The notes under the pieces are model-generated. The model saw only the letters and a list, made by a program, of their open reading frames with translations, did not search any database and had not been told where the DNA came from. A program made the translations under genes and the position numbers. Shown piece by piece: positions 13,402 through 29,543 of a stretch of DNA of 58,196 nt. The stretch comes from Elusimicrobiota bacterium (GTDB lineage: Bacteria; Elusimicrobiota; Elusimicrobia; UBA1565). The stretch's first letter is position 1; each line of letters starts with the position of its first letter. The DNA is taken from the NCBI GenBank assembly GCA_016218495.1, contig JACRDU010000046.1:1-58196 (forward strand), given 5' to 3'.

Positions 13402-13408
13402 GCAGGGG

Positions 13409-13437
13409 ATTTATCCATTTCGGCGCCGTCGGGTCAA
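13409..13437 (-). promoter_or_regulatory. Sigma-70-type promoter, leaderless type, for the sensor kinase
   Basis: Read on the minus strand: TTGACC (13437-13432), 17 bases, ATAAAT (13414-13409), then 7 bases to the ATG at 13401. A normal start site coincides with the start codon. Confidence 0.7.
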
Positions 13438-13450
13438 TTCGGGGCGTTCC

Positions 13451-13478
13451 TTGACACCCCGAGGGGGGGCGTTAAACT
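13451..13478 (+). promoter_or_regulatory. Sigma-70-type promoter, leaderless type, for the Ser/Thr kinase
   Basis: TTGACA (13451-13456), 16 bases including a G7 run, TAAACT (13473-13478), then 5 bases to GTG 13484. It is back to back with the sensor kinase promoter, with the two -35 boxes only 13 bases apart. Confidence 0.65.
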
Positions 13479-13483
13479 GTCGC

Positions 13484-15001
13484 GTGGTGCTCGCGCCCGC
13501 CTTCGTCGCATTGCTCGCGGCCGTCTCCGGCGGGGATTCCTTCGCAAACGAGCCCGTCGAGGACGAGAAGACCGTCCGGCAGGCGCGCTTCATCTCCAAC
13601 AAGGAGATCCAGGACGCGCTCCAAAAGCTCGCCCGGCCTTCCGGCGGCCCGGCGCTCGGCGGGGACCCGTTCTCCGCCCAGGAGGACCTGAAGGTCCGCA
13701 TCCAGCGCATCCTTCCGATGCTCGAACGCCTCGAGACGATGAAGGGTGGGTACGCCCACCTCGAATCCTTGGGCCCGGTCGAGGGAGAGCGCGCCGAGGT
13801 GCGCGCGGGCCTGGTGGCCGAGCAGGCGGCCTTTAACGAAGCGAGCCAACGCTTCAACGAGCTGCGCAAGCAGCATCAGACCCGGGAGCTCCAGGACATC
13901 CTGATCAAGGGGAAGTCGGCCGGCGTGCAGGAGAAGATATCGAGGGCGATGGAGCTCGAGCATTTCTCCGACGAGATCAAGGACGTCCGGCTCAAGACCG
14001 CGGCCGTCCTGGCCGACGATGAGGATGCCTTCAAGAAGGCGGCACAGGAGCTCCAGCGCAGGCGGCGGCAGGCGGCCGCCGCGGCGGGGGGCGCCGGCGT
14101 CCTGGGGGCCGCGGCCTTCGGGCTCTGGCTCTGGCGCCGGCGGGGTCCGCGGAAGGCCCCCGCCTCCCCGGCGGCGCCGTCGGGCGCGCTGTCTGCCGGC
14201 GCGCTCGTCGGGCGGAATTTCCGCATCGAGCGCGAGCTCGGGCGGGGCGGGATGGGCCTCGTCTACGAAGCGACGGACCTGGCCCTGCGGCGCAAGGTCG
14301 CGGTCAAGCAGATGCGCTCCGAGCTGCGCGAGAACCCGAAGGACCTCGGACAGTTCATGGAGGAGGCGCGGCTGGTGGCCTCCCTGAAGCATCCTAACGT
14401 GGTCGAGATACATTCCATCGTCGATGAGGGAGGAGAGGTCTATCTGGTCTTCGAGTTCGTCGCCGGGAACACCCTGAATTCCCTCCTCCAGCGTTCCCCG
14501 CGCCTCGCCCTGCCGTCGGCACGGGGCCTGCTGGACCAGATCGGCTCCGCGCTGGACTACGCCCATGGGCAGAAGGTCATCCATCGCGACCTCAAGCCCG
14601 CCAACGTGATGGTCACGGCGCAGGGCGCGGTCAAGGTGATGGATTTCGGGCTGGCCCACCAAGCCCAGCAGACCGTCGCCCGTCAGACCCGGGCAGAGTC
14701 GTGGGGAACCCCGCCGTACATGGCGCCGGAGCAGGAACTGGGCACCGTGTCCAGAGAATCAGACCTCTATTCCCTGGCGGTCCTTTTTTATGAGTCTCTG
14801 ACGGGGAAGCTGCCTTTCCCGGGGCCCAATTACCTGGCTCAGAAGCGGGAGCTGCGGTTCATCCCCGCGTCGCATGCGGCGCCGGGGCTGCCCTCCGGGC
14901 TGGACTCGGTTTTCTCCCGGGCCCTGCATCCGGACCCGGCAAAGCGCTTCCATTCGGCCGCCGAATTCACCGGTGCCGTGGATTTCGCGGCGGGGAGCTA
15001 G
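13484..15001 (+). CDS. Transmembrane Ser/Thr protein kinase (PknB/Hanks type)
   Basis: The 505-residue protein has an N-terminal signal-like segment (VVLAPAFVALLAAVSGG), an extracytoplasmic helical region to about residue 195, one transmembrane segment (GAGVLGAAAFGLWLW) and a cytoplasmic kinase domain from about 240. The motifs are complete: GRGGMGLVYEA (ATP loop), VAVKQM (ATP Lys), HRDLKPANV (catalytic Asp), VMDFGLA (metal Asp) and PPYMAPEQ. The order is inverted relative to typical PknB, which has its kinase at the N-terminus and sensor at the C-terminus. Two tandem GTG codons (13484, 13487) lie 5-8 bases after the -10 box and no ribosome-binding site is visible. The start is therefore inferred from leaderless logic and from the signal sequence. 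The stop is 12 bases from the convergent pelG stop, with no terminator seen. Confidence 0.9.
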   Translation: MVLAPAFVALLAAVSGGDSFANEPVEDEKTVRQARFISNKEIQDALQKLARPSGGPALGGDPFSAQEDLKVRIQRILPMLERLETMKGGYAHLESLGPVEGERAEVRAGLVAEQAAFNEASQRFNELRKQHQTRELQDILIKGKSAGVQEKISRAMELEHFSDEIKDVRLKTAAVLADDEDAFKKAAQELQRRRRQAAAAAGGAGVLGAAAFGLWLWRRRGPRKAPASPAAPSGALSAGALVGRNFRIERELGRGGMGLVYEATDLALRRKVAVKQMRSELRENPKDLGQFMEEARLVASLKHPNVVEIHSIVDEGGEVYLVFEFVAGNTLNSLLQRSPRLALPSARGLLDQIGSALDYAHGQKVIHRDLKPANVMVTAQGAVKVMDFGLAHQAQQTVARQTRAESWGTPPYMAPEQELGTVSRESDLYSLAVLFYESLTGKLPFPGPNYLAQKRELRFIPASHAAPGLPSGLDSVFSRALHPDPAKRFHSAAEFTGAVDFAAGS

Positions 15002-15012
15002 GGAGAAAGCCG

Positions 15013-16422
15013 TCAGATTTCCGAATCCTGCTCGTCCATCACCACGACGGGGTCCGGGAACGGCTGGCGGATGAAGGTCCAGTAGTGCAGGTGATGGACG
15101 CGGTCGATCATGTAATAGGCGGCAAGGCCCATGGCCGCCATGCAGGCCAGGCCGTAGCCGTAGCCGAAGGCCGGCAGGCCGTACTGGACGCTGAGGTTGG
15201 TCAGGACGGCGTTGAGCAGGCAGAAGAGGGCCGTGACCTTCAGGGCCTCGGGCTGGTGGTCGAAATAGAGCAGGATGTTCTGCAGGATGAGCGCCCCCGC
15301 CTGGCAGAACGCGGCGAACAGGCCCAGGCGCAGCACGCTCATCTGCAGCGGGTCCATCCGGACCAAAGTGACGATCCAGGGAACCAGGATGAGCATCGCC
15401 ACGCTGCACATCCCCTGCACGGTCACGACGCGCGAGAGGTTGTAGTTGAGCGAGCGCACGATGCCCTGGCGGCGGCGCTCCAGGACCGCGAGGCCCTCCT
15501 GGTCTTGGATGGCGGAGTAGTAATCGTGGTATTTGAAGAAGAAGTCGGTCTCGATGAGCAGGAAGAAGTAGACCAGCGAGGGGATGATGCTCAGATAGGC
15601 GAAGAACATCGGGGAGTCGTAGATCGGGCAGTAGCGCAGCCGCCCGTCGAGCCAGTCGCCCTCGGGGGAGGCCCAGAAGATGAACTTGTCCACCCAGATG
15701 CCCAGGTTGTAGAAGAATCCGATGCCGGCCAGACGCGGGTAGAGCTTGAAGTAGCGCAGCCAGTTGTGGTCGCGGGGCTCCCAGTAGCCGAACTCCTTGA
15801 GGAGGGTCGCCACCAGGCTCAGGAACACCACCGCCTGGCCCAGCACGAAGCCCAGGAAATAGCCCGGCAGCGACATCTGCCTGCCGAAGAACCAGGAGGC
15901 GAACAGGCTGACCAACAGCCCCCACAGGAAGGCCTTGCTGACGGCCCAGTAGTCGTGGGCGGCCGACAGGAACACCATCGCCAGCCAGATGCCCACGGCC
16001 AGGGCGTAGAGGCAGAAGGCCGCCAAGCGCATCTCCCAGCCCACGCTCAGCCCGCTGAAGTACCAGAACACCCACGGGCCCCAGACCAGGAGGTTCAGCG
16101 TGAAGGCGGAGAAGAACGAGGCGCTGAAGCTCGTGACATGGCCCCGGTAGTACTCGTCGGCCACATAGCGGGTCAGGACCAGGTAGGAGGGGCCCACGGT
16201 GATGAGGGAGAAGGCGAAGCAATAGGTGATGAGGCTCTGGAGGTAGGCGACCCCCAGCTCGGTGAGGTTGTTGCGGGAGACGACCTGGATGAAGATGACG
16301 AGCAGGACCGTTATGAGGAACGGCCCGGCCGTGATGAGGGTCGAGAAGCCGAACGCCTTCACCGAGCTGGTGTAGTCGTCGCCCGTGAGGAGCTTCTGGA
16401 GCTTGAATCCGATTCCGGCCAT
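15013..16422 (-). CDS. pelG: PelG, Pel polysaccharide membrane transporter
   Basis: The 469-residue polytopic protein has about 12 hydrophobic segments. Its N-terminus MAGIGFKLQKLLTGDDYTSS is characteristic of PelG, as are the internal signature segments GIWVDKFIFWAS and LIETDFFFKYHDYY. PelG belongs to the MOP/flippase group and is thought to work with PelD, PelE and PelF in moving nascent Pel across the inner membrane. Its length fits the family (about 456 in Pseudomonas). Its ATG overlaps the pelF stop by one base (TAATG). It is the last gene of the operon. I see no obvious terminator before the convergent kinase gene. Confidence 0.93.
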   Translation of the reverse strand: MAGIGFKLQKLLTGDDYTSSVKAFGFSTLITAGPFLITVLLVIFIQVVSRNNLTELGVAYLQSLITYCFAFSLITVGPSYLVLTRYVADEYYRGHVTSFSASFFSAFTLNLLVWGPWVFWYFSGLSVGWEMRLAAFCLYALAVGIWLAMVFLSAAHDYWAVSKAFLWGLLVSLFASWFFGRQMSLPGYFLGFVLGQAVVFLSLVATLLKEFGYWEPRDHNWLRYFKLYPRLAGIGFFYNLGIWVDKFIFWASPEGDWLDGRLRYCPIYDSPMFFAYLSIIPSLVYFFLLIETDFFFKYHDYYSAIQDQEGLAVLERRRQGIVRSLNYNLSRVVTVQGMCSVAMLILVPWIVTLVRMDPLQMSVLRLGLFAAFCQAGALILQNILLYFDHQPEALKVTALFCLLNAVLTNLSVQYGLPAFGYGYGLACMAAMGLAAYYMIDRVHHLHYWTFIRQPFPDPVVVMDEQDSEI

Positions 16423-17894
16423 TAGCGCATCATGTGTTCGTAGAGGTTCAGGTAGCGGCTGATGAGGTCGTCCTGGTCGTAGAAGCGGCTGGTGCGCGCC
16501 CGGCCGGCTTCCGACATGGCGTTCCAAAGCCCCGGCTCGGAGAGCAGGCGCAGGACGGCATGCGCCGTGTCCTCCGGGGCGGAGACGCCCGTGAGCAGGC
16601 CGCTGGGGCCTATCTCCTTGTCCTCCGGGGCGCGGCCCTCCAGCATCTCGCGGCAGGCCCCGACGTCGGTGGCGACGACGGGGAGGCCGATGGCGTTGGC
16701 CTCCAGGATGACGTAGGGCTGGGCCTCCGAGAGGCTGGTGAGGACCACCAGGTCGATGTCGGGATAGTGCTTGCGCATCTCCACCTTGCCGAGGAAGCGG
16801 ACCACGTCCGTCACCCCGAGCGCCTTGACCAGCTCGCGGCACTCCGCGGTGTAATCGGGCTCCTCGTCGGTCGGCCCGACGACCAGGAACTCCGTGCCCG
16901 GGCGCTTGGACGACACGATCCTGGCGGCGTGGATGAAGGTCTTGACGTCCTTGATGGGGACCACCCGGCCGATGAACGCCACGGTCTTGCGCTCCGAGCC
17001 CTGGGGCTTGAGGGGGATGTCGCGGTAATGCGGGAGGTCGATGCCGTTGGGGATGATGGCTATCTTCTCCGGCGGGGCTCCGGCCAGGATCTGCTTGGTC
17101 CGGTTCCCGTCGTAGAGGGTCAATATCCTGTCCGCGCTCTGGTAGGTCAGGCGTCCCATCACGTCGAAGAAGCCCAGCCAGAAGCGCTTGAAGAAGGAGA
17201 GCTCGCGCTGGACGCGGAAGCGCTCGCGCTGCGGGCTGTAGATCCACGTGGACTGGGAGATCTCGAGCAGGCGCTCGTGCGTGTAGACCCCGTGCTCGGT
17301 CAGGAGCATCCCGGAGTCCATCGTCCGCCGCGCCACGGCGGCCAGGACCCCGGCGTAGCCTGTGGAGACGGTATGGTAGAGGCGCGCCTTGGGAATCGGG
17401 CACTGCAGAGTCTTGAGCAGCGGCAGGTAGATGGAGCGCCAGGTCCAGAAGAAATCGAGGAAGGAGACGCCTTCCCCGTGGCGCTCGTAGGCCCGGGTCA
17501 GGACCTCCCAGGCTTCCGGCGAGCGGAAGAGGTCCGAGAAGCTGAGCACCGGGCCCGCTCCGCGCAGCAGCGGCAGCATCTCGGTGAAGGCCTCCATGCG
17601 ACCCGCGAAGAGCTCCTCCTGGAGCGCTTCAAGGCGGGCGATAGCCTGGCGGCGCCAGCGCCGGGGCGACAGGCCGGGGTCGGCGATGCGCTCGTGGAGG
17701 TAGAGGTCCTGGATGTTGACGACGTTCGACGGCAGCTTGTACTTGTATTCCCTGCGCGGGTTGGGGAACGGGGAGATATGGACGACGGAAAAACGGACGT
17801 CGGACATCGCGGTGACGAGCTGGTGGATCCAGGTCGAGACGCCGCCCGATACGAACGGGTAGGTCCCCTCCAGGATGAGGCAGATGTCGCTCAC
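16422..17894 (-). CDS. pelF: PelF, Pel glycosyltransferase (GT4 family)
   Basis: The protein has 490 residues. The N-terminal half (LEGTYPFVSGGVSTWIHQL, SPFPNPRREYKYKLP) is the PelF-specific domain. The C-terminal half is a GT-B nucleotide-sugar domain with FIGRVVPIKDVKTFI and the E-x7-E retaining-GT motif at E390 and E398. In Pseudomonas, PelF is the cytosolic UDP-dependent polymerase that builds the GalNAc/GlcNAc Pel polymer. Its length is close to the family norm (507). The ATG overlaps the stop of the HEAT-repeat gene (ATGA). Confidence 0.95.
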   Translation of the reverse strand: MSDICLILEGTYPFVSGGVSTWIHQLVTAMSDVRFSVVHISPFPNPRREYKYKLPSNVVNIQDLYLHERIADPGLSPRRWRRQAIARLEALQEELFAGRMEAFTEMLPLLRGAGPVLSFSDLFRSPEAWEVLTRAYERHGEGVSFLDFFWTWRSIYLPLLKTLQCPIPKARLYHTVSTGYAGVLAAVARRTMDSGMLLTEHGVYTHERLLEISQSTWIYSPQRERFRVQRELSFFKRFWLGFFDVMGRLTYQSADRILTLYDGNRTKQILAGAPPEKIAIIPNGIDLPHYRDIPLKPQGSERKTVAFIGRVVPIKDVKTFIHAARIVSSKRPGTEFLVVGPTDEEPDYTAECRELVKALGVTDVVRFLGKVEMRKHYPDIDLVVLTSLSEAQPYVILEANAIGLPVVATDVGACREMLEGRAPEDKEIGPSGLLTGVSAPEDTAHAVLRLLSEPGLWNAMSEAGRARTSRFYDQDDLISRYLNLYEHMMR

Positions 17895-19846
17895 CCGGCC
17901 GCTCCGGTCAAGAGCTCCCTGAGGCGCGCGGCGCCCAGGGCCAGGGCCCCTTCGTGGTCTTCCCGCAGCAGCGCGGCCGCCAGGCTCTCGGCGGCCGCGG
18001 GGGTCTGCTCGGCGGCCATCAGCTCATAGAAGAGCGGGCGCGTCTCGGCGGGCTCCTCCGCGAGGCGCGCGCGGAGGAATTCGAGCGGGAGCGGAGGGAA
18101 ACGCCGCTTCATGGACCGCATCGACGAGTTGAGGAGGCGCACCAGGAGCCGCCGGCGCTCCGCGGTCTCCAGCCTCTCCCATAGGTCCTGGAAGGTCAGC
18201 GCCCCGTAGGCCAGGAGATGCACGCAGACGGCGATATAGGTCTCGGGATGGCGCTCGAGCAGCAAGAGCGGGTCCGCGCGCAGCAGGTTCAGCAGCGGCT
18301 CGACGCGCGAGACGTCCCAGCTCTGGTGGGTGAGCAGGCGCACGGCGTGCCCGAGGAGGCTGGCCCTCTCGGGATGGGCCACCAGCGCCTTGGCCAGGGG
18401 GATGGGGTCGCGGCCCAGGCCCAGCGAAATCTGCTTGGAGATGGTGTTGACGACCTCGGGGTCCGGCTCCTTGTACAGGACGTCGAGCAGGGCCCGGATC
18501 TTGCCGGCCAGCGGATACCAGCCGAGGATCTGCAGGGCGAGGTAGCGGATGTTGATGACTTCGCTGGAGAGGGCCTCGAGGAGGAACGGGAGGAGGTCGT
18601 CCTTGATGGCCTCGTCGGGGCCGCGCTTCGCCCAGTGCGCGAAGAGGGCCTGGCGGACGGTGGGGGAGAGGCCCCCGTCCCTGACCAGGGATATGAGCGC
18701 CGGCCCCGCGCCCGCGCCGCGCATCCGGGCCAGGGCCCCGGCGGCGGAATATGCGACGAGCGGGCTGCGCTTCACGGCGTCGCGCAGCAGGCCGGCGGCA
18801 TCGGCCCCTTCCAGCAGGCGCAGGACCTCGACCAGGTCGACGGCTCCCATGTCGTCGGCCTTGTGCCAGAGCCTCAGGATGGCGCCGCGCACCACGGGGT
18901 CCTCGCCCAGGAAATCGGCCAGGAAGGTCGCAGCCTGCCGGCGGGTGTCCGGCTCGGGGTCCTCGAGCAGCGGCAGGAGGCCGGCGCGCAGGACCTTGGG
19001 GGGAAAAGAGCGCAGGGCGACCTCGCAGGCCAGCTTGAGCCCGGGGGTCGCCGAGTCGGAGGCGAGCAGGGTCAGCGGCCGGACCCACCCCGGAGAGGGG
19101 AAGGACGCCAAGGCGCGGATGGCGCGGTCCCGGGCGCTCTCGGGCTCTTTCTCGTCGAGGGCCTGGTCGAGCAGGAGCTGGGCCACCCGGCGCGACGGGA
19201 ACATGCGCAGCGCCTCGAGCGCGGCGCGCCGGACCCTCTCGGAGTCGTCGCGGGTGAGGCGGACGAAGAAACCGACGTCGAGGGCGCGGGTCCGGACCTG
19301 GAGGTCTGCCAGCACCGAGACGGCCCGGTGGCGGACTTCCTCGTCGGGGGAGGCCGTCAGCGGGACCAAGATCGCGGCCGAGCGCCGGTCCGGCAGGTAG
19401 CGCAGGCCCTCGATCATCTCGAGCCGCACGCCTTCCTCCCGCTCCGGGAGCTCCCGGATGATGAGCGGGAGAATGTCCATGAAGCCGGCCCGGGAGAGCG
19501 TCCTGACCGCGAAGCGGCAGGCACGGGAGTCTTTGGAGAGCACGAGCTGTTTGAGGTGGCGGGCCTTGCCCGGGTAATGGTTGCGCTTGTAGGCGTCCAT
19601 CGCCGCCCGGGAGACGACCTCGTTGCCCCGCTCGATGAGGCGCAGGATGGGCAGGACGGCCTTCTTCTCGGGGAGCTCTTCGAGGTACTGCAGGATGATG
19701 AGGGGGATGAGCGGGTCGTCTGTGGCATAGAGCTCGGCGAGCGATTCGCGGTCGCCTTGCTCCATGGAGTTGTAGAGGCGCATGAAGGTGTCGTAGCGCT
19801 CGAGCTCGGACATGAACGCGAAGTCGGAGAGGGTGACCCTAGGCAT
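17891..19846 (-). CDS. HEAT-repeat protein inserted in the pel operon
   Basis: The 651-residue soluble protein consists almost entirely of helical repeats of 30-40 residues (for example DEEVRHRAVSVLADLQ, DSERVRRAALEALRMF, DPEPDTRRQAATFLADF), matching the HEAT/PBS-lyase class. There is no signal peptide, so it is probably cytoplasmic. It is not one of the canonical Pel proteins. Its start overlaps the pelE-like stop by 8 bases and its stop overlaps the pelF start (ATGA). It is therefore made in step with PelE and PelF and may be a scaffold for the cytosolic face of the synthase. Function is inferred only from position and fold. Confidence 0.85.
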   Translation of the reverse strand: MPRVTLSDFAFMSELERYDTFMRLYNSMEQGDRESLAELYATDDPLIPLIILQYLEELPEKKAVLPILRLIERGNEVVSRAAMDAYKRNHYPGKARHLKQLVLSKDSRACRFAVRTLSRAGFMDILPLIIRELPEREEGVRLEMIEGLRYLPDRRSAAILVPLTASPDEEVRHRAVSVLADLQVRTRALDVGFFVRLTRDDSERVRRAALEALRMFPSRRVAQLLLDQALDEKEPESARDRAIRALASFPSPGWVRPLTLLASDSATPGLKLACEVALRSFPPKVLRAGLLPLLEDPEPDTRRQAATFLADFLGEDPVVRGAILRLWHKADDMGAVDLVEVLRLLEGADAAGLLRDAVKRSPLVAYSAAGALARMRGAGAGPALISLVRDGGLSPTVRQALFAHWAKRGPDEAIKDDLLPFLLEALSSEVINIRYLALQILGWYPLAGKIRALLDVLYKEPDPEVVNTISKQISLGLGRDPIPLAKALVAHPERASLLGHAVRLLTHQSWDVSRVEPLLNLLRADPLLLLERHPETYIAVCVHLLAYGALTFQDLWERLETAERRRLLVRLLNSSMRSMKRRFPPLPLEFLRARLAEEPAETRPLFYELMAAEQTPAAAESLAAALLREDHEGALALGAARLRELLTGAAG

Positions 19847-20873
19847 GGGTCCACCACAGGACGGCCGAGCGCCATTCCGGGTCGCTCCCCGCTTCGGCCA
19901 GGAGAGGCTCCTTGTCCTCGAGCAGGAGCCGGCGCACCTCGGCGTGGCGTCCCAGCCGGAAGCAGAGCTCGGCGCGTTCGCGGACCCAGCGCAGGCGCTT
20001 GCCGGGGTCCAGGCGTTCGAGCCGGTCCAAGGCGCTGAACGACGAGGCCGGGTCGAGCTCCCTTTCGACGAGGAACGCCAGACGGGCCGCGGCCGGGTCG
20101 CGCTCCGCCGAGGCCTGCAGGGCCTTGCGGCTCACGAGCAGGAGGCCCTCCCTGGCGGAGGCGTCGAGCATCCCGGAGACCGCGTATTCGTAGCGCACCC
20201 GCTGAAGGGCGAGCTGGAGCTCGGGGTCTCCGGGCTTGGCGAGGACTTCCCGGGAGGAGGCCTGGATGGCGGCGTCGAAATCGTGGTTCAGCCTGGTGAT
20301 GGCGGTGGTGGCGAAGAAGCGCACCTCGGGGTCGGGGTCGGTCCGGGCGCGCAGGATCCAGCCGACGGAGTCGACGCTTCGAATCCGCGCCAGCGTCTCG
20401 ATGGCTCCGCGCTTGAGGGCGGGGTCGGCGCTGAGCAGGGCGTCGGCCGCGGGCAGGACGTCCAAGGCGTCGGCCAGCTCCTTGCGGATGGCTTCGGGGG
20501 TCCCCAGGGCCGCCAGCGGGTTGGCGTCGTCCGGAGCGTCGTCGTCGAAGCGGTAGGCGGATTTGGCCCGGACGGCCTCCCCGCGCGCCATGACCAGCCA
20601 ACCCGCCATGACCCAGCCCAGGCCCGGCATCAGCAGCGTCGCCAGGCCCAGTCCCTCTCCCCAATGGCGCGAGGGCAGGAACCAGCCCTTCTCCCGGGAC
20701 GGGGCGAAGAAGACCAGGGCGGCGCAGAGGATGTGCCCGAGCGGGACGGCCCAGCCGGGCAGACCCAGGTCGAAGCCGACGAGCAGCGCAAGGACGGGCA
20801 GCTCGCAGAGACCGGCCGCCGCCCAGAGCGCCGCGAAGCGCCTGTCAATGGACGTCTTGGCGGGCGTTGGCAA
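19839..20873 (-). CDS. pelE: PelE-like inner-membrane helical-repeat protein
   Basis: The 344-residue protein has two closely spaced hydrophobic segments (about residues 14-58), a third at about 78-93, and then a helical-repeat (TPR/HEAT-like) cytoplasmic domain. The size and plan match PelE (about 329 residues, transmembrane pair plus TPR), and it sits next to pelD as in known operons. The start is TTG at 20873, 26 bases inside pelD. It is supported by a strong GGAGGAG five bases upstream and by the lack of another ATG/GTG before the first membrane helix. PelE is an inner-membrane partner of PelD and PelG. The family match is by architecture, not by diagnostic residues. Confidence 0.65.
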   Translation of the reverse strand: MPTPAKTSIDRRFAALWAAAGLCELPVLALLVGFDLGLPGWAVPLGHILCAALVFFAPSREKGWFLPSRHWGEGLGLATLLMPGLGWVMAGWLVMARGEAVRAKSAYRFDDDAPDDANPLAALGTPEAIRKELADALDVLPAADALLSADPALKRGAIETLARIRSVDSVGWILRARTDPDPEVRFFATTAITRLNHDFDAAIQASSREVLAKPGDPELQLALQRVRYEYAVSGMLDASAREGLLLVSRKALQASAERDPAAARLAFLVERELDPASSFSALDRLERLDPGKRLRWVRERAELCFRLGRHAEVRRLLLEDKEPLLAEAGSDPEWRSAVLWWTHA

Positions 20874-22227
20874 CGATCTCCTCCGGGTTCTTCATGGTGT
20901 GGGCGAACGATCCGACCCCGTAGCGCGCTCCCTCGGGCAGGCCCAGCTTGACGGTGGACTGCGCGATGCGCATGCGGACCTCCTCGGCCCGCTCCCTGGT
21001 CGCCGTCATCAGGACGATCGCGAACGGGGCGGCGGGGTCTTCGGTCGAGGCGACGAGGTCCCCTTCCCGGACGGAATCCCGCAGGACGCTGCAGAGGGCC
21101 TGGAGATAGGCCTCGCGCCGGGTCTCAGGGACGTCCGGGGACGGCACGACGAGCAGGACGGAGAAGGGCAGGGCGTGGCGCACGCTGCGGCTGAACTCCT
21201 GCTTGAGGCGGCTCTTGAAGTAGCCTGCGCTGTGGGTGGCGAACCTCTCGTCGAGGATGGACCGGGCCCTCAGCTCTTCGACCTGCAGGCATTTGGCGTA
21301 GGCCTCCGAGCCCCAGTCGGCGAGCAGGGTCAGCAGGTTCAGGCTGGCGCTGTTGAAGCGCATGAAGGGCATGGCCTGCACGGCGAAGACGGCCACGGGG
21401 TCTCCGTCCGGCGAGAGCAGCGGGGCGGCCATGATGGCGTCTGCCTTATCCGGCAGCTCGACGCCTTCCCCTATCTCCCCGACCAGCCAGTCCTTGATGC
21501 TGGAAGGCTTCTTGTCCGCGGCCGCCCGGCCGACGATGCCTTGGCCGGCCTCGACGACGGCCGGATATTCGGCGTCATGCGCCCAGCCGATCCTGCGGCT
21601 CAGGACCCAGCGTCCCCCCTCGGGGAGGTACAGGGCGGTCTTGGTGGCCTGCAGCGCCCGGGTGAAGAAGTCGCTGACGGCCGCCATCAGCTCGGCGCGG
21701 TCCAGGGAGGCGAGCTGCCGCGAGCCGTGATAGAGGGTGACGACCGAAGACATCTGGCTCACGACCTGCTGCTCGATGGCGCGCATGGCCTTCTGCTGGA
21801 CCACGATCTGGCTCTGGAGCCCGCGGTTCCGGTCCGTCAGGTCGGCGCTGTCGTCGAGGAGCGTCTGGATGCGGTGGCGAAACGAGTCCGCCGCCGCGCC
21901 CACGGCCGCGCCGACCAGGACGAAGAGCCCTGGGGCGGCGTAGAAGTCGGCGTCCTCGAATCTGAAGGATTCCCCGGACCATTCCACTCCCAGGGCGTGC
22001 AGGCCCGCGGCGACCAGCCCTGAGGCCAGGCCGGCGCCCATCCCGTAGCGCAGGCCGAAGAGGAGCAGGCCCAGCCACAGCGGGCTCGGATTGACCGACA
22101 GGAAAGAGGGGTCGTCGGGCCGGAGGGCGCGCTGCAGGAGGATGAGGGCCAGGTAGAAGACGGGGACCTCGTACATCCAGGCGCGGCTCTGGGCCGGCCG
22201 CGGGACGGGCTGGTTCGTCTCGTTCAT
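20845..22227 (-). CDS. pelD: PelD, inner-membrane c-di-GMP receptor
   Basis: The 460-residue protein has four hydrophobic helices in residues 20-112, a linker helix, a GAF domain (about 165-310) and a degenerate GGDEF domain (about 335-455). The diguanylate cyclase signature is lost (TEDPAAPF stands where GGDEF would be), but the inhibitory-site motif RxxD is kept as R387-E-G-D390. PelD in Pseudomonas (455 residues) binds c-di-GMP through exactly such a site to switch Pel synthesis on. Polymer production here should therefore also depend on c-di-GMP. The ATG at 22227 overlaps the upstream stop (ATGA), which is why I prefer it to the ATG at 22245. Confidence 0.9.
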   Translation of the reverse strand: MNETNQPVPRPAQSRAWMYEVPVFYLALILLQRALRPDDPSFLSVNPSPLWLGLLLFGLRYGMGAGLASGLVAAGLHALGVEWSGESFRFEDADFYAAPGLFVLVGAAVGAAADSFRHRIQTLLDDSADLTDRNRGLQSQIVVQQKAMRAIEQQVVSQMSSVVTLYHGSRQLASLDRAELMAAVSDFFTRALQATKTALYLPEGGRWVLSRRIGWAHDAEYPAVVEAGQGIVGRAAADKKPSSIKDWLVGEIGEGVELPDKADAIMAAPLLSPDGDPVAVFAVQAMPFMRFNSASLNLLTLLADWGSEAYAKCLQVEELRARSILDERFATHSAGYFKSRLKQEFSRSVRHALPFSVLLVVPSPDVPETRREAYLQALCSVLRDSVREGDLVASTEDPAAPFAIVLMTATRERAEEVRMRIAQSTVKLGLPEGARYGVGSFAHTMKNPEEIVANARQDVH

Positions 22228-24050
22228 CGTGGTTCCCACCGCCATAGTATCTGGAGCTTCACCGATTGGCTGCGCCCGCCGACCCCCGAGGCGTCATCGA
22301 GGGAGAGGGACCAGCCGGCGTGGAGCTCGAGCGGGCCCGTCTCGTAGACCGTGTTGACCCCCAGCCCGACCAGGTCGAAGGACGTGAAGTTCCTGCGGTG
22401 CTCGGGGTCATGTCCGTTGAAGGCGTAGCCGTCGGCGCGCAGGCGGCCGGCGAGCCAGTTGCGTCCCGCGGAAAGGGTGCCATATTGGGCGCGCGCCCTG
22501 CGCTGGAGGGGGAGGGCGGCGAAGAACGACGAATCCCCGGAGGCGTCGACGGAGACGAAGCGCCAGGAGGCCGCGCCGTAGAACGGGCGGGTGAGCAGGG
22601 TGACGACTGCTTCGGGCGCCAGCAGGACCTGTTCGGCCTTGCCCCCCGCGCTGACGCTCAGGCGGTCCAGGCGGGCTTGGCCGCCCAGGCTCAAGCGGGG
22701 GAGGACCCGGGCGCGCGCGTCGAATCCGACCTGGTCGGCCTTGGCGCCGGCCGCGGCCGCCTCGGTGGAGTCGTTCCAGGCCCGGCGCAGGGCGGCCGCC
22801 GCCGAGGCTGAAACGGTGGAATCCGGCTTATAGGCCAAGGAGGCGCCCGGCGAGGCCGCGCTGAAGCCGGGCGCCGCGCGGAGGTCGAAGTCGAGCGTCC
22901 GGGTCCAATCCGGCGTCTCCCAGGAGAACGCGGCGGAGGCGCCCGTCTGGGCGCCCCGCGTCCCGCGGGATTTGACGCTCCAGGCCGAGCGGCCGGCGCT
23001 CAGCTCGAGCTTGAGGCCCTCTATGGGATAGCCGAAGTAAAGCAGCCCGGTGTCGAGGGAACGCACGCTCTTGGACTCCCTCCATCGCAGCGTGGGGCCG
23101 ATGTGGTGGTCGGACTTGCGCCGGACCTCGGCCAAGAGCTCGTCGGCCCAGCGCCGCTGCGCGGGACCTTCGCGCGCCGCCCTGAGGCGGCCGCGGGCGG
23201 GCCCCCAGCGGCGGGCCTTGACCTCCGCTTCGCCCAGGGAGAGCAGGAGCTGGCGCTCTTCAGGGAACTCCGCCACCGCCTCAGCGAGGAAGGCGCGGCG
23301 CTGGTCCTCGCGCCCCGTCTGCTTGAGGCGCTCGGCCTCGAGGCGCCGCCAGCGCAGGCGGCGGTCGGGCGCGCGTTCGCGCAGGAGGTCCAAGGGCTCG
23401 TCCGCCTGGGCATGGAGGTCGTGACGGTAGAGGGCGTCCACCCATTCGACCAGGGTCTCCGGCTGGTCCGGGGCATCGTCGAAGAGCCGGCCGAAGTCGT
23501 CGTTGAGGCGGTCGTCGAAGCCGAGCCGCGAGCGCAGCCGCAGGGCGGTCCTGCGCTGGGTGGTCGTCTTAGGGCTGACCAGCCCGTTGAGGGAGGCCTG
23601 TGCGAGCCGGCGTCCTTCGCCGGCGTCCCCCCGCGAGAACGCCAGCTCGGAGAGGAAGTAGGTGATGAGCGGGTCCGAGCTCCTGGCGCGGGCCCGCTCG
23701 AGGTCGCGCCTGGCGGCCGGGAGGTCGTCGGCGGCGAACTCCTCGAGGCCCAGCTGCATCAGGAGCCCGGCGTCCTCCCCCTTCCCGGCCAGGAGGTTCC
23801 GGTAGACCTCGGCGGCATCGGCGTGGCGGCCCTGGCTGGAACGCAGGCGGGCCAGGCGGGTCTGCCAGACGACCTTGTCGTCGTCGTCGCCGATGCGCCG
23901 GCCGATGAACTCCTCGGCTTCGGCATGGCGCCCTTCCTCGATGAGCAGGTCGGTCAGGAACAGGGCGCGGCGGCGCTCCTGGGGGGAGACGCCGGCCGGG
24001 GAGGCCGGGGCGGTCGAAACGGCCGCGGCCAGGAGCAGGGCCGTCATCAT
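22224..24050 (-). CDS. pelB: PelB C-terminal half: TPR plus outer-membrane beta-barrel
   Basis: The 608-residue protein has an N-terminal signal (MMTALLLAAAVSTAPASPA), TPR-like repeats to about residue 300, then alternating hydrophobic/polar strands rich in aromatic girdle residues to the C-terminus (WSLSLDDASG..., ending in VKLQILWRWEPR). This matches the C-terminal region of PelB, the outer-membrane export porin of the Pel system. In Pseudomonas PelB is a single protein of about 1190 residues. Here the TPR scaffold and the barrel are divided over two genes (478 + 608 residues). The ATG overlaps the upstream stop (ATGA). Confidence 0.78.
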   Translation of the reverse strand: MMTALLLAAAVSTAPASPAGVSPQERRRALFLTDLLIEEGRHAEAEEFIGRRIGDDDDKVVWQTRLARLRSSQGRHADAAEVYRNLLAGKGEDAGLLMQLGLEEFAADDLPAARRDLERARARSSDPLITYFLSELAFSRGDAGEGRRLAQASLNGLVSPKTTTQRRTALRLRSRLGFDDRLNDDFGRLFDDAPDQPETLVEWVDALYRHDLHAQADEPLDLLRERAPDRRLRWRRLEAERLKQTGREDQRRAFLAEAVAEFPEERQLLLSLGEAEVKARRWGPARGRLRAAREGPAQRRWADELLAEVRRKSDHHIGPTLRWRESKSVRSLDTGLLYFGYPIEGLKLELSAGRSAWSVKSRGTRGAQTGASAAFSWETPDWTRTLDFDLRAAPGFSAASPGASLAYKPDSTVSASAAAALRRAWNDSTEAAAAGAKADQVGFDARARVLPRLSLGGQARLDRLSVSAGGKAEQVLLAPEAVVTLLTRPFYGAASWRFVSVDASGDSSFFAALPLQRRARAQYGTLSAGRNWLAGRLRADGYAFNGHDPEHRRNFTSFDLVGLGVNTVYETGPLELHAGWSLSLDDASGVGGRSQSVKLQILWRWEPR

Positions 24051-25483
24051 TGGACGGCTCCGGCCGGAGCCGCCGTCGGGGCCTTGAAGAGCCCTTTGAG
24101 GATTTCGATGGCCCTCTTCCTGTCTCCTCGCGCCGCGAGCAGGCCGGCGAGGTCCTCGGCCGCCTTGGGGTCCTCCGGGAAGAGGGCGATGTAGCGCTCG
24201 AGGGTGTCGATGGCGGAGTCGCGGGACCCACGGCTCTCCTCGAGGAAGGCCAGGGCCTTCCAAAGAGCGGCGTCGGCCGGGTCCAATCCGACCAACCTGC
24301 GGTATTCCGCGATGGCCTCAGCGAAGCGTTCCTCTTCCTGGAGCATGTAGGCCAGCTGCCGGCCGCGCCGCCCGTCCGCGGGGGCGGCCCGTACGCGCCG
24401 GGTCAGGAGCGTGATGGCCTTCTCGGTGCGGGCGGCCGACTGGTATTCGTAGAGCAGGGTGTCGAAGACCTTCTCATCGCGCGGCTGGAGCGCGTGCATC
24501 CGTTCGAGGACGCCCGCGGCGTCCCCGTGCCAGCCCTTGTCGGCATAGGCGTAGACGAGGCCCCACCAGCGCCGCATGTCGTCCGGGTCCTGGGCGATCA
24601 GGGCCTCGAGGATCTTCGCTCCGTCCTCGATGCGGCCCTGCTCGAGCATGCAGCGCGCCAGCTCCTGGGGCCAGGCGGGCTCCTTGGGCTGGCGCGCCAT
24701 GAGGAGCTTGAGGTCCGCTTCCGCCCGGGCCCACTGCTTCGCGTCGATCAGCAGAGACGCCCGGTCTCCGAGCAGGGCGGGGTTCCCCGGCAGCGCTTCC
24801 AGGGCGGCCGCGGCCTCCTGGAGGGCTTCCTGGTCCATCTTGCGCAGGCGGTAAAGGCGCACGACGGCCCGGCGGAGCTCGACGTTCTTGGGCTCCTGGA
24901 GCAGGTTCTCGCGCAGCATGGCAAGGGCCTTGTCGAAGCGGCCTCGGACGAGATAGAGGCGCAGGACCTGGTCCCGGTAGCCGGTGTCCTTGCCTCCCAA
25001 GGATGCCAGCGCGCTCAGCGCGCGCAGGGTCCCCTCGTCGTCCTGGGCCGCGGACGCGCGCTGGTAGGCCTCGTAGAGGATGGCCTCGATCTGGCGGCGC
25101 TCGGGGTGGGGCATGTTCCGGAGGTCCCGGACGAGCTCCCATCTGAAGTCGGCGGCCTGCTTCTTCATCGCGCAGCGCTCGTAGAGCCGCACGACGGCCT
25201 GCCCCGATTCGAAGTCCCCGCGGCGGTGGCGGTAGAAGGACAGCAGCACGGGGAGCCCCTCGTCCGGGCGGCCCGCCGCCTCGTAGGCGGCGGCCAGCGC
25301 GATGGTGGCGCCCTTGTGGTACGGGTGGCGTTCGAGGTAATAGCTGAAGAACTCGATGGACTGCGAGCGGTCGCCTTCCTGGCGGTGCATCTGGCCGCGG
25401 AAATACTCGCTGGGATACAGCAGCCAGCCGGCCCCCGAGAGGACGAGGAAGAAGGCCGCCACCTGGCCCCATCGGAAGATCAC
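24047..25483 (-). CDS. pelB: PelB N-terminal half: membrane-anchored TPR protein
   Basis: The protein has 478 residues. One transmembrane segment at residues 7-24 (VAAFFLVLSGAGWLLYPSEY) anchors a periplasmic TPR array of about 12 repeats (for example YHKGATIALAAAYEAAGRPD, AELARCMLEQGRIEDG-type units). This corresponds to the inner-membrane anchored TPR part of PelB, which guides the polymer and binds the deacetylase PelA in Pseudomonas. The start is a GTG overlapping the upstream stop as GTGA. It would have to assemble with the separate barrel protein encoded next. Confidence 0.78.
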   Translation of the reverse strand: MIFRWGQVAAFFLVLSGAGWLLYPSEYFRGQMHRQEGDRSQSIEFFSYYLERHPYHKGATIALAAAYEAAGRPDEGLPVLLSFYRHRRGDFESGQAVVRLYERCAMKKQAADFRWELVRDLRNMPHPERRQIEAILYEAYQRASAAQDDEGTLRALSALASLGGKDTGYRDQVLRLYLVRGRFDKALAMLRENLLQEPKNVELRRAVVRLYRLRKMDQEALQEAAAALEALPGNPALLGDRASLLIDAKQWARAEADLKLLMARQPKEPAWPQELARCMLEQGRIEDGAKILEALIAQDPDDMRRWWGLVYAYADKGWHGDAAGVLERMHALQPRDEKVFDTLLYEYQSAARTEKAITLLTRRVRAAPADGRRGRQLAYMLQEEERFAEAIAEYRRLVGLDPADAALWKALAFLEESRGSRDSAIDTLERYIALFPEDPKAAEDLAGLLAARGDRKRAIEILKGLFKAPTAAPAGAVQ

Positions 25484-27549
25484 CGGAGCGCCTCCACGGT
25501 CGTCTCCCGAGCCTCGCCCCAGCGCTCGGAGTCGGGGAGCGAGAAGCTGATGCGGCCGTCGCTGCCGGCCCGGCCCGTCCATTCCCGGCCGGCGCAGCGG
25601 ACCCGGTAGCCGCGGCCGGGCCTGAGCCCCGCCAAGGTCCCTTCCGCCCTGCCCCATCCGCGCTTGCGAAAGCGCAGGCCTTCGCCGGCGCGGCTCCAGC
25701 CCTCGACCTCGAAGTTCGCCTCCTCGAGCCAAGGGCCAGGTCCCGGCTCGGCGGCGAGCACGACCTCGCGCCGGGCGGACTCGTCGAGGTGGACATAGAG
25801 CGAGCCGGGCTCGCGCTTGAACCCGAGCACGCCCTGGGAGGCCGCCAGGTCGGGCACGCCGGGCTCGTCGTCGAAGCGCACGGTGCGCAGCTCCGGGGCT
25901 CCCTCGAGCATGAAGCGCCGCGGGCCCGTGCGCAGGACGCGCATCTTGAAGAAGTCCCGCGCCGCGCGGGCATAGCGGCCCCCCCAGACCGGGATGAGCG
26001 GTTGGGATTCGGACCAGGCGAGCACCTGCTTGTAGGCCTGCAGCGCGGCGAATTTCTCGGCCGAATAATAATGGACGTAGACGTCGACCGGCTTCAGGCG
26101 CCGGGGAGCCCCCGTCCTGCGGAAGGTCTCGATGGCGTCGCGGTAGCCGTAATAGGGACCCGTCCAGAGGCCGGTGAAGTCGTTCTCGTTGTAGGCCGGC
26201 GCGTAGAGCTGGCGGGCGCTCCCCGCCACGCGCGACATCGGGTAGAGGTACGCGTAGCTGGGGAATTCCGCGTCGAAGCGGCCCCCGCCCCCGTTGATTC
26301 CGAGCAGCCCCGCGCGCTCGGCCAAGAGGAGGTCCGATTCCGAGGGCAGGCAGTCCCCGGTCCATTGGAAGACCGACACTCTCTTGCGGGGGGAGAGGAA
26401 CCTCTCCTCGAGGGTCCGGGCCGAAGCGACGATCTCCCTCTCCGGGTCCATGCGGTAGCGAGGGATGCTCAGGGCCAAGGTGCCCGAGCTCCAGACCAGG
26501 GGGTGGGCGAACCCGTGCGAGCCCGGCTCGACGTTGGGCCGGTTCAGGACCAGGCGGGAGAGCGTGAGGGCCTCCGGGGCGCGGTAGAGGTTCAACTCGT
26601 AATACCCTGAGATCAAGGACAGCGAGAACGGGAGGTCCGGCTTCTTCTCGAGGACCTGGCGCAGGAACACCTCGCCGGAATACTGCCGCCGGCTGATCTC
26701 GGAGCGGTTGAAGAAGCCGTCCCCGTCGACCCGGTACATGACCATGCGGCGGCCGCTCAGCGTGGTGGCATCGGGGCGCGGAAGGCCCTTCATCCGCAGC
26801 GCCGCCCCGAAGAAGGCCAAGGGGTCCACCACCCAGCGGTATTCCATCGGCGTCACTTCGCGGTTCGCATAGAGGAGGAAGGGGTCCAGGGCCAGGGCTC
26901 CCCTGCGGGTCAGGGCCACCGGTACGGAGCGGGGGGCGCCCCCGTCGTTGAAGGCCAGGGTCAGCAGCGCCGTGCCGCCGGGCAGAAGCTCCACCGCCGG
27001 CACCGCGGGGAGCTCGCTGGGGTCGGGCCTGCGTTCGAAGCCGACGACCGCCTGGTCCGCATCCGCGACGGCGACCGACATGGAATCGACGGGACGGGGC
27101 GCGTCCAGCACGACGCCGAGCTTGCGCAAGGCGTCGCCGCAGTCCGGCTCGATGGCGGGGAAGCCGGCGGCCGCCTTCGTGCGCAGGCCGGTGCGGCCTA
27201 AGAGGATCCACGGCAGGCCCGCGTCCATGGCGGAGGAGAGCCAGCGGCAGACCGGCTTGGGGTCGCCGAACGCCGCCTCGTCGGCGAACCACGTCAACAC
27301 CGCCCGCGCCGAGTCCAGGGCGGCCGGGTCGGGGAGGGGCTTTGAGGCATCGAGGTATTCGGCGACGAGGCCCAGGTGGTCGAACCAAACCTCGGCCCGG
27401 GTGTGGAAGGAGAGGCTCTGGGACCCCGGAATCCCGCCGGGCGCGGCGTCGCCCCGATAGAGGACGAAGACCTTGCGCGGGAGTTCGACGGCGACGGGCG
27501 CGGCGGCTGCCGGAGCTCCCAGGAGGAGTGCCAGCGCCGCCCGCCTCAC
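25480..27549 (-). CDS. pelA: PelA deacetylase half (CE18-like)
   Basis: The 689-residue protein starts at a GTG overlapping the upstream stop (GTGA) and has a short signal peptide (ALALLLGAPAAAAP). A Rossmann-like region precedes a polysaccharide-deacetylase domain carrying RVDGDGFFNRSE (D275 and D277) and SHGFAHPLVW (H345, H349). This is the DGD/HxxxH metal site of the PelA deacetylase. A beta-rich C-terminal domain follows from about 560. PelA deacetylates Pel in the periplasm to give the cationic polymer. The hydrolase domain normally fused in front of it is a separate gene here. Confidence 0.85.
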   Translation of the reverse strand: MRRAALALLLGAPAAAAPVAVELPRKVFVLYRGDAAPGGIPGSQSLSFHTRAEVWFDHLGLVAEYLDASKPLPDPAALDSARAVLTWFADEAAFGDPKPVCRWLSSAMDAGLPWILLGRTGLRTKAAAGFPAIEPDCGDALRKLGVVLDAPRPVDSMSVAVADADQAVVGFERRPDPSELPAVPAVELLPGGTALLTLAFNDGGAPRSVPVALTRRGALALDPFLLYANREVTPMEYRWVVDPLAFFGAALRMKGLPRPDATTLSGRRMVMYRVDGDGFFNRSEISRRQYSGEVFLRQVLEKKPDLPFSLSLISGYYELNLYRAPEALTLSRLVLNRPNVEPGSHGFAHPLVWSSGTLALSIPRYRMDPEREIVASARTLEERFLSPRKRVSVFQWTGDCLPSESDLLLAERAGLLGINGGGGRFDAEFPSYAYLYPMSRVAGSARQLYAPAYNENDFTGLWTGPYYGYRDAIETFRRTGAPRRLKPVDVYVHYYSAEKFAALQAYKQVLAWSESQPLIPVWGGRYARAARDFFKMRVLRTGPRRFMLEGAPELRTVRFDDEPGVPDLAASQGVLGFKREPGSLYVHLDESARREVVLAAEPGPGPWLEEANFEVEGWSRAGEGLRFRKRGWGRAEGTLAGLRPGRGYRVRCAGREWTGRAGSDGRISFSLPDSERWGEARETTVEALR

Positions 27550-28400
27550 CTGGACTCCCCCGGGAAGACCGTGCCGAGGCGGTCCAGGCTGGGAGAGGCG
27601 AGGTAGGGGCGGAAGCCGGCCGCGCGCGCCCTTTCGACGGCCTTGCGGACCCAGCGCGCGTCGCGGTCCTTGGCGCGGGAGTAGAGCAGGACGAAGACCG
27701 GTTTCCCGGTCTTCGCGACGAAGGCCTTGAGGACGGCCTCCTTGCTCCGCGCGACCTCTTCGGGGGTCGGCCCGCACGGGCCGGGCTCCGGGTGGCAGCG
27801 CGTATAGAGGTCCTCGATGACCAGGCCGTCGATCGCCCCCGCGATGCCGTCGAGCAGCGCCAGGCCGTTGTTCACGAGGATGAGGGCTCCGGGCCGGCGC
27901 TGCCTGAGGTCCAGCACCAGCCGCACCGCGGCGTCCTTCATCCCGACGAACCTGGCCGGGGCGGAGGACTCGAGGTATTCCGCCACATCCAGGGTGTCCA
28001 GCATCACCCCCGCGTAGCCCTTGGCCAGGGCCGAGGAGACGGTCGTCTCGAGGAGGAGCTCCCGCCATTGCGGGGAACGCATGTCGACCCGGTGCGCGCC
28101 CTTCCAGGCCGGGTTCGGCTCGACGAGGAAATCCTTCCCCTTGGCCAGCGGCCAGGTCCAGCGCGCGGAGTCCGCCTCTCCGGCGCTGACATATGCGAGC
28201 GCGGCCGGGCCGGAGGTCGAGGGGCGCACGAAGCCGTCGGGGTCGACGACCGCCAGGTCGAGGCCGCCCCAAGCCCGCGAGGAGATGTTGTCGCCGTAAA
28301 AGCACGCCCAGCGCCTGGCCTGCGCCAGACGAGGGGGCTCCGCGCGCAGGGGCGCGGCCGCGGCGACGGCCCCGAGGAGGACGGCGGCGGCTCCCGTCAT
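27546..28400 (-). CDS. pelA: PelA glycoside-hydrolase half (GH166-like)
   Basis: The 284-residue protein has a signal peptide (to about residue 20) followed by a TIM-barrel of the GH114/GH166 type: FYGDNISSRAWGGLDLAVVD, AYVSAGEADS, RVDMRSPQWREL, GYAGVMLDTLD and IDGLVIEDLYTR. E196 is in the position of the catalytic Glu of PelA (E218 in Pseudomonas). The enzyme is an endo-acting hydrolase that trims Pel and limits biofilm. In Pseudomonas it is the N-terminal domain of a 948-residue PelA. Here the two activities are separate, coupled genes. The ATG overlaps the upstream stop (ATGA). Confidence 0.85.
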   Translation of the reverse strand: MTGAAAVLLGAVAAAAPLRAEPPRLAQARRWACFYGDNISSRAWGGLDLAVVDPDGFVRPSTSGPAALAYVSAGEADSARWTWPLAKGKDFLVEPNPAWKGAHRVDMRSPQWRELLLETTVSSALAKGYAGVMLDTLDVAEYLESSAPARFVGMKDAAVRLVLDLRQRRPGALILVNNGLALLDGIAGAIDGLVIEDLYTRCHPEPGPCGPTPEEVARSKEAVLKAFVAKTGKPVFVLLYSRAKDRDARWVRKAVERARAAGFRPYLASPSLDRLGTVFPGESR

Positions 28401-29458
28401 TGCGGGCAGCTGGCGGTGGAGATCTGCTCGCGCCTCTTCATGAAGAGCTTGACCCAGTCCTCGACCACGGCGGGGCGCGAGCGGCCCTTTTCGTCCACGA
28501 TGGGATGGTCCAGCTTGCCGAGCGCGTCGAAGCGCGCCCCGGTGAAGAGGTCCCTGATCTGCTTTTCCGAGAGCTTGCCGAGGAGCTCGGACAGCAGCGC
28601 GCGGCCCGCTTCCGAGACCTTGGGGTCCCGCGAACGGCTCGAGGTGGTCTCGAAGTCCGCGAGGCACTGGGACGGGTCCTTCCAGAGGGACTTCTTCTTG
28701 GCCCAGTTCCGATAGGAGGTGAAGTAGCCCTTGCCGCCGAAGGTCCCTCCGGCGTCGGTGATGTAGGCGATGGGCCGCTTGCAGGCTTCGTCTCCCTCGA
28801 GGCAGAGCAGGCGCTGCTGGTTGGCTGTGTTGTCGCCGTGGTTCATGAAGACGGCCAGGAGCTTGAGGGCGTCGGCCTCCGCCGGGCTCGACCCGCCGGC
28901 GGATTCGTCGACGAGGCCGAGCTCATCGAAAGTAAAGCCCTCCTCTTCGGTCTCGGAGACCTCGGTCCCCTTCAGGCGCTTCTGGATGGACACCGGGAAG
29001 AAGGTGCGGGTCGCGCGAGGCGAGTCGGCCGTCGCCGTCCAGGGGTCCGCCGGGCAGTTCTCGCAGACCAGCTTGACCGAGTAAAGCCGCTCGGCGTAGA
29101 ACCCGAGCCCCCAGAGCAGGCGGGACCCCGCCACCTCGCCGAAGACCTCGGGGTTGGCCGAGCCGTCGTATTTGATCTTGAGGCGTTCGCCGTCGGCCGT
29201 CCAGCATGGGAATTTCTTGGAGTGTCCTCCGAGGGGGCGCTTCGGGTCCTTTTCCTCGTATCGGCAGCGCACCTCCGCGTCCGACCCGTAGGCGCCGGGC
29301 CCCTGCGGCCCGTTGAGGAGGTCGCGGGTGGAGGGGTCGATGTCTTCCCGGACATGGGCGCGGCGCAGGACCTCCCTGCGCTCTTCGGGGGAGACCACCT
29401 TGGCTTGCAGGACAGCGGGGAGCAGCGGCAGAAGGGCGGCTATGAGGAATGTAAGCAT
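28397..29458 (-). CDS. Secreted protein resembling an atypical kinase fold, first gene of the pel operon
   Basis: The 353-residue protein has a signal peptide (MLTFLIAALLPLLPAVLQAK). I do not know a named family for it, but three segments look like an atypical (PI3K/HipA/Fam20-like) kinase core. KIKYDGSANPEVFGEVAGSR (about 94-113) would hold an ATP-binding Lys and an Glu. FMNHGDNTANQQRL (204-217) resembles a catalytic loop, and YITDAGGTFG (232-241) resembles the metal-binding DxG/DFG segment. Four Cys (C133, C136, C219, C226) could form disulphides. It leads the operon and its stop overlaps the pelA hydrolase start. A role in modifying Pel or envelope proteins is a guess. Confidence 0.6.
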   Translation of the reverse strand: MLTFLIAALLPLLPAVLQAKVVSPEERREVLRRAHVREDIDPSTRDLLNGPQGPGAYGSDAEVRCRYEEKDPKRPLGGHSKKFPCWTADGERLKIKYDGSANPEVFGEVAGSRLLWGLGFYAERLYSVKLVCENCPADPWTATADSPRATRTFFPVSIQKRLKGTEVSETEEEGFTFDELGLVDESAGGSSPAEADALKLLAVFMNHGDNTANQQRLLCLEGDEACKRPIAYITDAGGTFGGKGYFTSYRNWAKKKSLWKDPSQCLADFETTSSRSRDPKVSEAGRALLSELLGKLSEKQIRDLFTGARFDALGKLDHPIVDEKGRSRPAVVEDWVKLFMKRREQISTASCPQ

Positions 29459-29512: not shown

Positions 29513-29543
29513 TTGACACTTTCAATCGGAGCCGTGCTACAAT
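29513..29543 (+). promoter_or_regulatory. Strong promoter of the pyrimidine-degradation operon
   Basis: TTGACA (29513-29518) and an extended -10 TGCTACAAT (29535-29543). The spacer to TACAAT is 19 bases. The expected start site, near 29550, lies downstream of the ATG at 29542. That codon therefore cannot be the start if this promoter is used. Confidence 0.75.

Follow-up and report, generated by a model that had tools for sequence, protein, structure and literature searches.

A ten-gene overlapping cluster

The window, by which we mean the whole 58,196-nucleotide stretch analysed here (contig JACRDU010000046.1 of an Elusimicrobiota bacterium), contains between positions 15013 and 29458 ten minus-strand genes that run from 29458 to 15013 and overlap their neighbours at nine of nine junctions:

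g1, 28397..29458, minus strand: 353 aa, kinase-fold protein, predicted to be exported, first gene of the operon
g2, 27546..28400, minus strand: 284 aa, PelA-type hydrolase, GH114/GH166-like
g3, 25480..27549, minus strand: 689 aa, PelA-type deacetylase with mixed alpha/beta domain
g4, 24047..25483, minus strand: 478 aa, TPR protein with apolar N-terminal segment, proposed inner half of a PelB-like bridge
g5, 22224..24050, minus strand: 608 aa, signal-peptide-like start, TPRs and predicted C-terminal beta-barrel, proposed outer half of a PelB-like bridge
g6, 20845..22227, minus strand: 460 aa, PelD-like, with membrane segments, GAF and degenerate GGDEF with RxxD
g7, 19839..20873, minus strand: 344 aa, PelE-like, with membrane segments and helical repeats
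g8, 17891..19846, minus strand: 651 aa, HEAT-repeat protein, no membrane segment
g9, 16422..17894, minus strand: 490 aa, PelF glycosyltransferase
g10, 15013..16422, minus strand: 469 aa, PelG exporter

Six junctions are 4-base overlaps, reading ATGA at g1/g2, g4/g5 and g5/g6 and GTGA at g2/g3, g3/g4 and g8/g9; for g6 the start chosen is the ATG at 22227, so that its junction with g5 is also of the usual ATGA kind. The g9/g10 junction is a TAATG with a 1-base overlap, and the two longer overlaps measure 29 bases (g6/g7) and 8 bases (g7/g8). A sequence-only reading of this DNA had described a ten-gene overlapping pel-type operon with exactly these kinds of junctions, and all ten genes and all nine overlaps were found. 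It had further described a HEAT-repeat gene and a kinase-like gene as embedded extras. Two extra genes are indeed there, but the kinase-like one, g1, stands at the head of the operon and not within it, and the additional HEAT protein is g8.

Because a divergent gene starts at 29542 on one side and a convergent gene ends at 15001 on the other, the cluster stands alone. A promoter scan found none, and terminator-like sites occur at chance frequency. The convergent gene (13106-15001, plus strand) encodes a protein kinase domain and stops 11 bases from the end of the operon; it adjoins a HAMP sensor histidine kinase gene (11950-13401, minus strand).

Genes for polymer synthesis and inner-membrane transport

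Two of the genes are assigned directly by family models: g9 is PelF (NF038011, 506 bits against a cut-off of 100) and g10 is PelG (PF16933, 399.7 bits against a cut-off of 29). Profile comparison aligned g6 to PelD with a probability of 98.3, and PelD was also matched in a PDB sequence search (E 0.005); the Pfam search did not reach the PelD_GGDEF family. All seven g6 members carry RxxD immediately before the degenerate GGDEF. By these comparisons g6 is PelD-like, a putative c-di-GMP receptor with an invariant RxxD site.

The product of g7, which has three hydrophobic segments, aligned to PelE with a profile probability of 97.7. It also has a HEAT match and was considered as the extra HEAT gene, a candidacy rejected on its PelE-like profile; since g7 is PelE-like, the extra HEAT protein must be g8.

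Division of PelA and a PelB-like pair

More specifically for PelA, g2 matches PF03537 (E 7.6e-17) and aligns by profile to PelA residues 81-281 (probability 99.0), and g3 matches PelA residues 372-890 of PDB 9cgy (E 3.7e-76) and aligns by profile to residues 285-919 (probability 100), where both profile ranges follow the numbering of the Paraburkholderia protein. Judged from these alignments, PelA is cut cleanly between the hydrolase (g2) and the start of the mixed alpha/beta domain (g3), as expected from the earlier proposal that hydrolase and deacetylase are encoded separately. Catalytic residues were checked against those named in PMC12022489: g2 keeps the Asp and Glu equivalent to D160 and E218, and g3 keeps the equivalents of D528, D530, H600 and H604. 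At the position of H526 in the deacetylase, the window has Arg and two relatives have Gln. Elsewhere, the Paraburkholderia graminis PelA (L016:3963-6851) lacked the hydrolase Glu in the alignment, and after that operon an endo-polygalactosaminidase is encoded by a gene of its own.

The evidence for a divided PelB is of another kind. The g4 protein is a TPR array with TPR family matches and a weak profile match to the TPRs of PelB. At its N terminus a short run of apolar and aromatic residues precedes a conserved LYPSEY/LYPDEY; the 22 apolar and aromatic N-terminal residues of P. aeruginosa PelB have been described as a possible inner-membrane helix (PMC12141448). Because the hydropathy of the g4 segment lies under the 1.6 threshold, N-terminal anchoring in the inner membrane is likely, not certain. 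An AF2 model of g5 places helices at 23-313 and strands at 316-605 (mean pLDDT 75.6, below 60 in parts of the barrel), and its Foldseek matches are TPR proteins and BcsC. Family and profile searches gave no significant sequence similarity between the g5 barrel and that of PelB, so that we call g4 and g5 PelB-like by layout and position, not by sequence, with the barrel itself a prediction of the model. Accordingly, the suggestion that the PelB scaffold and barrel are separate genes stands for the distribution of functions over two genes, which order and domain layout support, and does not extend to homology of the barrel.

Recurrence of the layout in related genomes

PelG is present in 8 of the 57 relatives searched. 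Eight genomes of the order, with protein identities of 32-76%, show the operon layout, which places it far beyond chance. Every relative in which both genes are complete repeats the 29-base g6/g7 overlap, and all but one (G011, where the start is uncertain) keep the 8-base g7/g8 overlap; most other junctions are of 4, 1 or 13 bases. Seven Elusimicrobia loci, which by their coordinates belong to seven of these eight genomes, have g1 at the head followed by g2 to g5 in the same order, the exception being G006 (L028), which lacks g2. The exception suggests that loss of the hydrolase is possible.

The window comes from a draft metagenome-assembled genome, and its genes overlap by only a few bases, as might be expected if the splits were frameshifts or assembly errors in fused pelA and pelB, or if the cluster were decaying. 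Splits and overlaps fall at the same points in other genomes across the 32-76% identity range, the split products start with export or anchor segments of their own, and catalytic residues are kept in them. Because the splits recur in seven related genomes, sequencing error is excluded, and we regard the error or decay explanation as having next to no probability. The separate genes are thus real, as the sequence-only reading had supposed.

Search for PelC

PelC has been described as a hallmark of Gram-negative Pel export and essential to it (PMC12141448). No PelC-like gene was found within the operon, in line with the earlier remark that a PelC-like lipoprotein is missing. A PelC model built from a nine-sequence alignment was searched against the order's eight genomes with PelG and against controls. 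Scores for canonical PelC were 172-250 bits in C. metallidurans, G162 and G193, the last two having also given rows to the alignment and C. metallidurans none; Azospirillum scored 71 bits. Two controls had no match, namely G212, where PelG lies at a contig end, and a Cereibacter plasmid, whose locus carries another export gene. The eight PelG-bearing genomes gave weak off-target matches only, the best being 30.5 bits (G001). Nothing of PelC strength thus appeared outside the operon either, although the same model scores strongly in canonical operons of the same phylum. PelC is thus absent from these eight draft assemblies at the sensitivity reached, and an unrelated analogue may exist elsewhere in the genome.

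In some relatives a gap between g5 and g6 was considered as a hiding place for PelC and rejected. In G003 (L029:17213-19459) and G006 (L028:8445-11222) the space is taken up by a long, charged, probably coiled-coil N-terminal extension of PelD, and in G050 by an inserted receiver-like response regulator gene (L025:17336-17716).

A divergent lipoprotein elsewhere in the genome might do the work of PelC. The top match of the window's genome to the PelC model, at 24.6 bits, is a GNA1162-like gene beside CsgG, and in Azospirillum the PelC position is filled by a GNA1162/CsgG-like gene. That Azospirillum gene, however, is the one that reaches 71 bits, the GNA1162-like gene of the window's genome lacks the PelC motif WxYKxGxDxEP, G162 has both a homologue of it and a true PelC, and the best matches in G003, G011 and G050 reach only 10.5 to 14 bits. 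We consider such a substitution quite unlikely. The GNA1162-like lipoprotein and CsgG genes lie together at L068:2947-4487, and a similar lipoprotein occurs in G162.

With PelC undetected in a conserved lineage that keeps a deacetylase, a hydrolase, a TPR scaffold and a predicted barrel, the role of PelC itself becomes open to study.

The additional genes g1 and g8

Sequence searches of Pfam, NCBIfam and PDB gave no useful match for g1. Its AF2 model (pLDDT 86.7, pTM 0.88) found CtkA, HipT, CotH and HipA as nearest folds in Foldseek (E 1.6e-5 to 7e-4), the best match having TM-scores of 0.46 and 0.56, values that indicate a shared fold, not close kinship. Lys96, Glu108, Asp209, Asp235 and Gly237 are invariant columns with distant relatives included, which argues for nucleotide binding; the catalytic Lys, Asp and DxG were assigned by motif and not from superposed coordinates. 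On the model, g1 has a kinase-like fold with kinase-type residues kept. It thus resembles the HipA/CtkA/CotH group in predicted fold and in the invariant Lys, Glu, catalytic-loop Asp and DxG, and differs from it in having no detectable sequence similarity, in being encoded with pel and in its predicted export, which is suggested by a hydrophobic N terminus.

Among the relatives searched, close g1 orthologues (E 1e-176 or better) are present in 8/8 genomes with PelG and in 0/49 without it. The superfamily extends beyond pel, since distant relatives occur in 18 genomes of another family of the phylum, f9, that lack PelG, and on one Acidobacteria contig. The f9 relatives are of about 420 aa (L059, L061, L062 and other genomes) and have no common neighbourhood; no conserved neighbours were seen in four loci. 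On the Acidobacteria contig two g1-like genes stand in tandem (L031:5580-7672), with no pel genes in the 7.7 kb covered.

ATP is scarce outside the cytoplasm, and the best TM-score of g1 to solved kinases is only 0.56. Both points would fit a pseudokinase-like or binding protein that lacks transfer activity and serves as a structural or polymer-binding part. Even the distant relatives nevertheless keep the Lys, the Glu, the two Asp and the Gly of DxG without exception, and we see this alternative as a serious one that falls somewhat short of an even chance. Since the kinase-fold gene g1 accompanies the operon wherever it occurs, it hints at a step of control or modification that is not known from Pel systems.

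The second additional gene, g8, matches HEAT_2 (E 2.3e-26) and, because it has no membrane segment, is probably cytoplasmic. Full-length g8 was found in seven of the eight PelG-bearing genomes, the PelG contig of the eighth (G002) being broken off; the 49 PelG-negative genomes gave no full-length g8 (0/49), only partial HEAT matches. A reading of g8 as a fragment of PelE or PelB was rejected for want of profile similarity.

Relation to known pel operons

Canonical pelABCDEFG, as in Pseudomonas aeruginosa and in family f9, has in common with the window operon PelF, PelG, PelD, PelE, hydrolase, deacetylase and, by layout, a TPR and barrel route. Canonical operons have fused PelA and PelB and contain PelC, whereas in the window both are split, PelC is missing, and g1 and g8 are added. 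In f9 the operon order is pelC-D-E-F-G-A, followed by a gene of about 250-275 aa and lastly pelB; PelA and PelB are fused proteins there, PelC is clear, and no g1 lies beside the operons. The gene between pelA and pelB lies at L073:375-1202, L074:278-1039, L076:585-1334 and L077:712-1458. In a PelF tree (midpoint root, several long branches) f9 groups with Paraburkholderia and Azonexus, and the window's group falls elsewhere. Because the two fall apart, the two operon types probably entered Elusimicrobiota separately. In one more distant Elusimicrobiota genome (G239; L045 and L063), PelF and PelG precede a patatin and a kinase that has a cyclic-nucleotide domain, after which comes a deacetylase-only PelA relative.

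Each split has a published precedent. A split PelA is known in Gram-positives: the Bacillus cereus pelDEA(DA)FG operon (PMC7112168) likewise has a deacetylase-only PelA, a separate hydrolase and no PelC, but belongs to a Gram-positive, has no barrel/PelB TPR export pair and leaves the hydrolase outside the operon. Fission of pelB with gene gain is described for a clade of aquatic thermophiles (PMC7112194), which the window operon, by its layout, resembles in both features. The pel locus of Azospirillum thermophilum (NZ_CP029356.1) combines a separate hydrolase and deacetylase with separate TPR and TPR-barrel proteins, but keeps a PelC homologue (the 71-bit match) and has neither g1 nor g8. The pel cluster of Cetobacterium, a two-membrane bacterium, includes neither PelB nor PelC. 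For Seep-SRB loci, PMC10553843 lists PelA, PelE, PelF, PelG and a possible PelD equivalent. Our literature search found nothing on pel in Elusimicrobiota, most subscription papers being outside its scope.

The description of the operon as a distinct architecture is therefore only partly right: the two published splits and the Azospirillum locus, which has both, precede it, and the full combination is without precedent in the literature consulted. What is new here is the joining of both splits with loss of PelC, the large HEAT protein g8 and the kinase-fold g1, predicted to be secreted.

A possible mode of operation

Taken together, sequence and structure models support the gene identities except for the g5 barrel, the kept catalytic and RxxD residues, the lack of a detectable PelC, the conservation in eight genomes and the fold of g1. 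We consider it likely, with good though not full confidence, that in this Elusimicrobiota lineage the ten genes form an intact operon for a Pel-type exopolysaccharide and are arranged so that export proceeds without PelC. As predicted from its genes, the cluster very probably serves to produce and export the Pel biofilm sugar.

We hypothesize that PelF (g9) would polymerise GalNAc from UDP-GalNAc, and that PelD (g6), switched by c-di-GMP at RxxD, would pass the chain through the inner membrane with PelE (g7) and PelG (g10), with g8 a probable cytoplasmic scaffold of the PelD/PelE/PelG complex. A divided PelB bridge would then follow, in which g4 sits in the inner membrane and offers its TPRs as a dock for the deacetylase g3, and g5 supplies the outer TPRs and the outer-membrane pore. 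The free hydrolase g2 may trim the polymer, and exported g1 would probably phosphorylate the polymer or an export part, or bind nucleotide to regulate it. The most specific version, Pel export free of a PelC ring in a two-membrane bacterium by way of separate inner and outer TPR proteins, together with a dedicated exported kinase g1 that phosphorylates polymer or exporter, is one to which we give a low probability. The natural cuts suggest that two fusions are dispensable, that of hydrolase with deacetylase and that of the inner- with the outer-membrane half of the bridge.

The product could instead be some other hexosamine polymer related to Pel. PMC7112194 cautions that the composition of the polymer may differ where pel loci have diverged, and the window's PelF shares only about 33-40% identity with the PelF of proteobacteria or of f9. 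This PelF nevertheless lies far above the equivalog cut-off, and hydrolase and deacetylase keep the active sites of the Pel enzymes; we consider a different polymer improbable and retain Pel as the predicted product. The window's genome encodes several GGDEF proteins and one GalE above its cut-off, which makes c-di-GMP control and the usual epimerase for sugar supply plausible in this organism.
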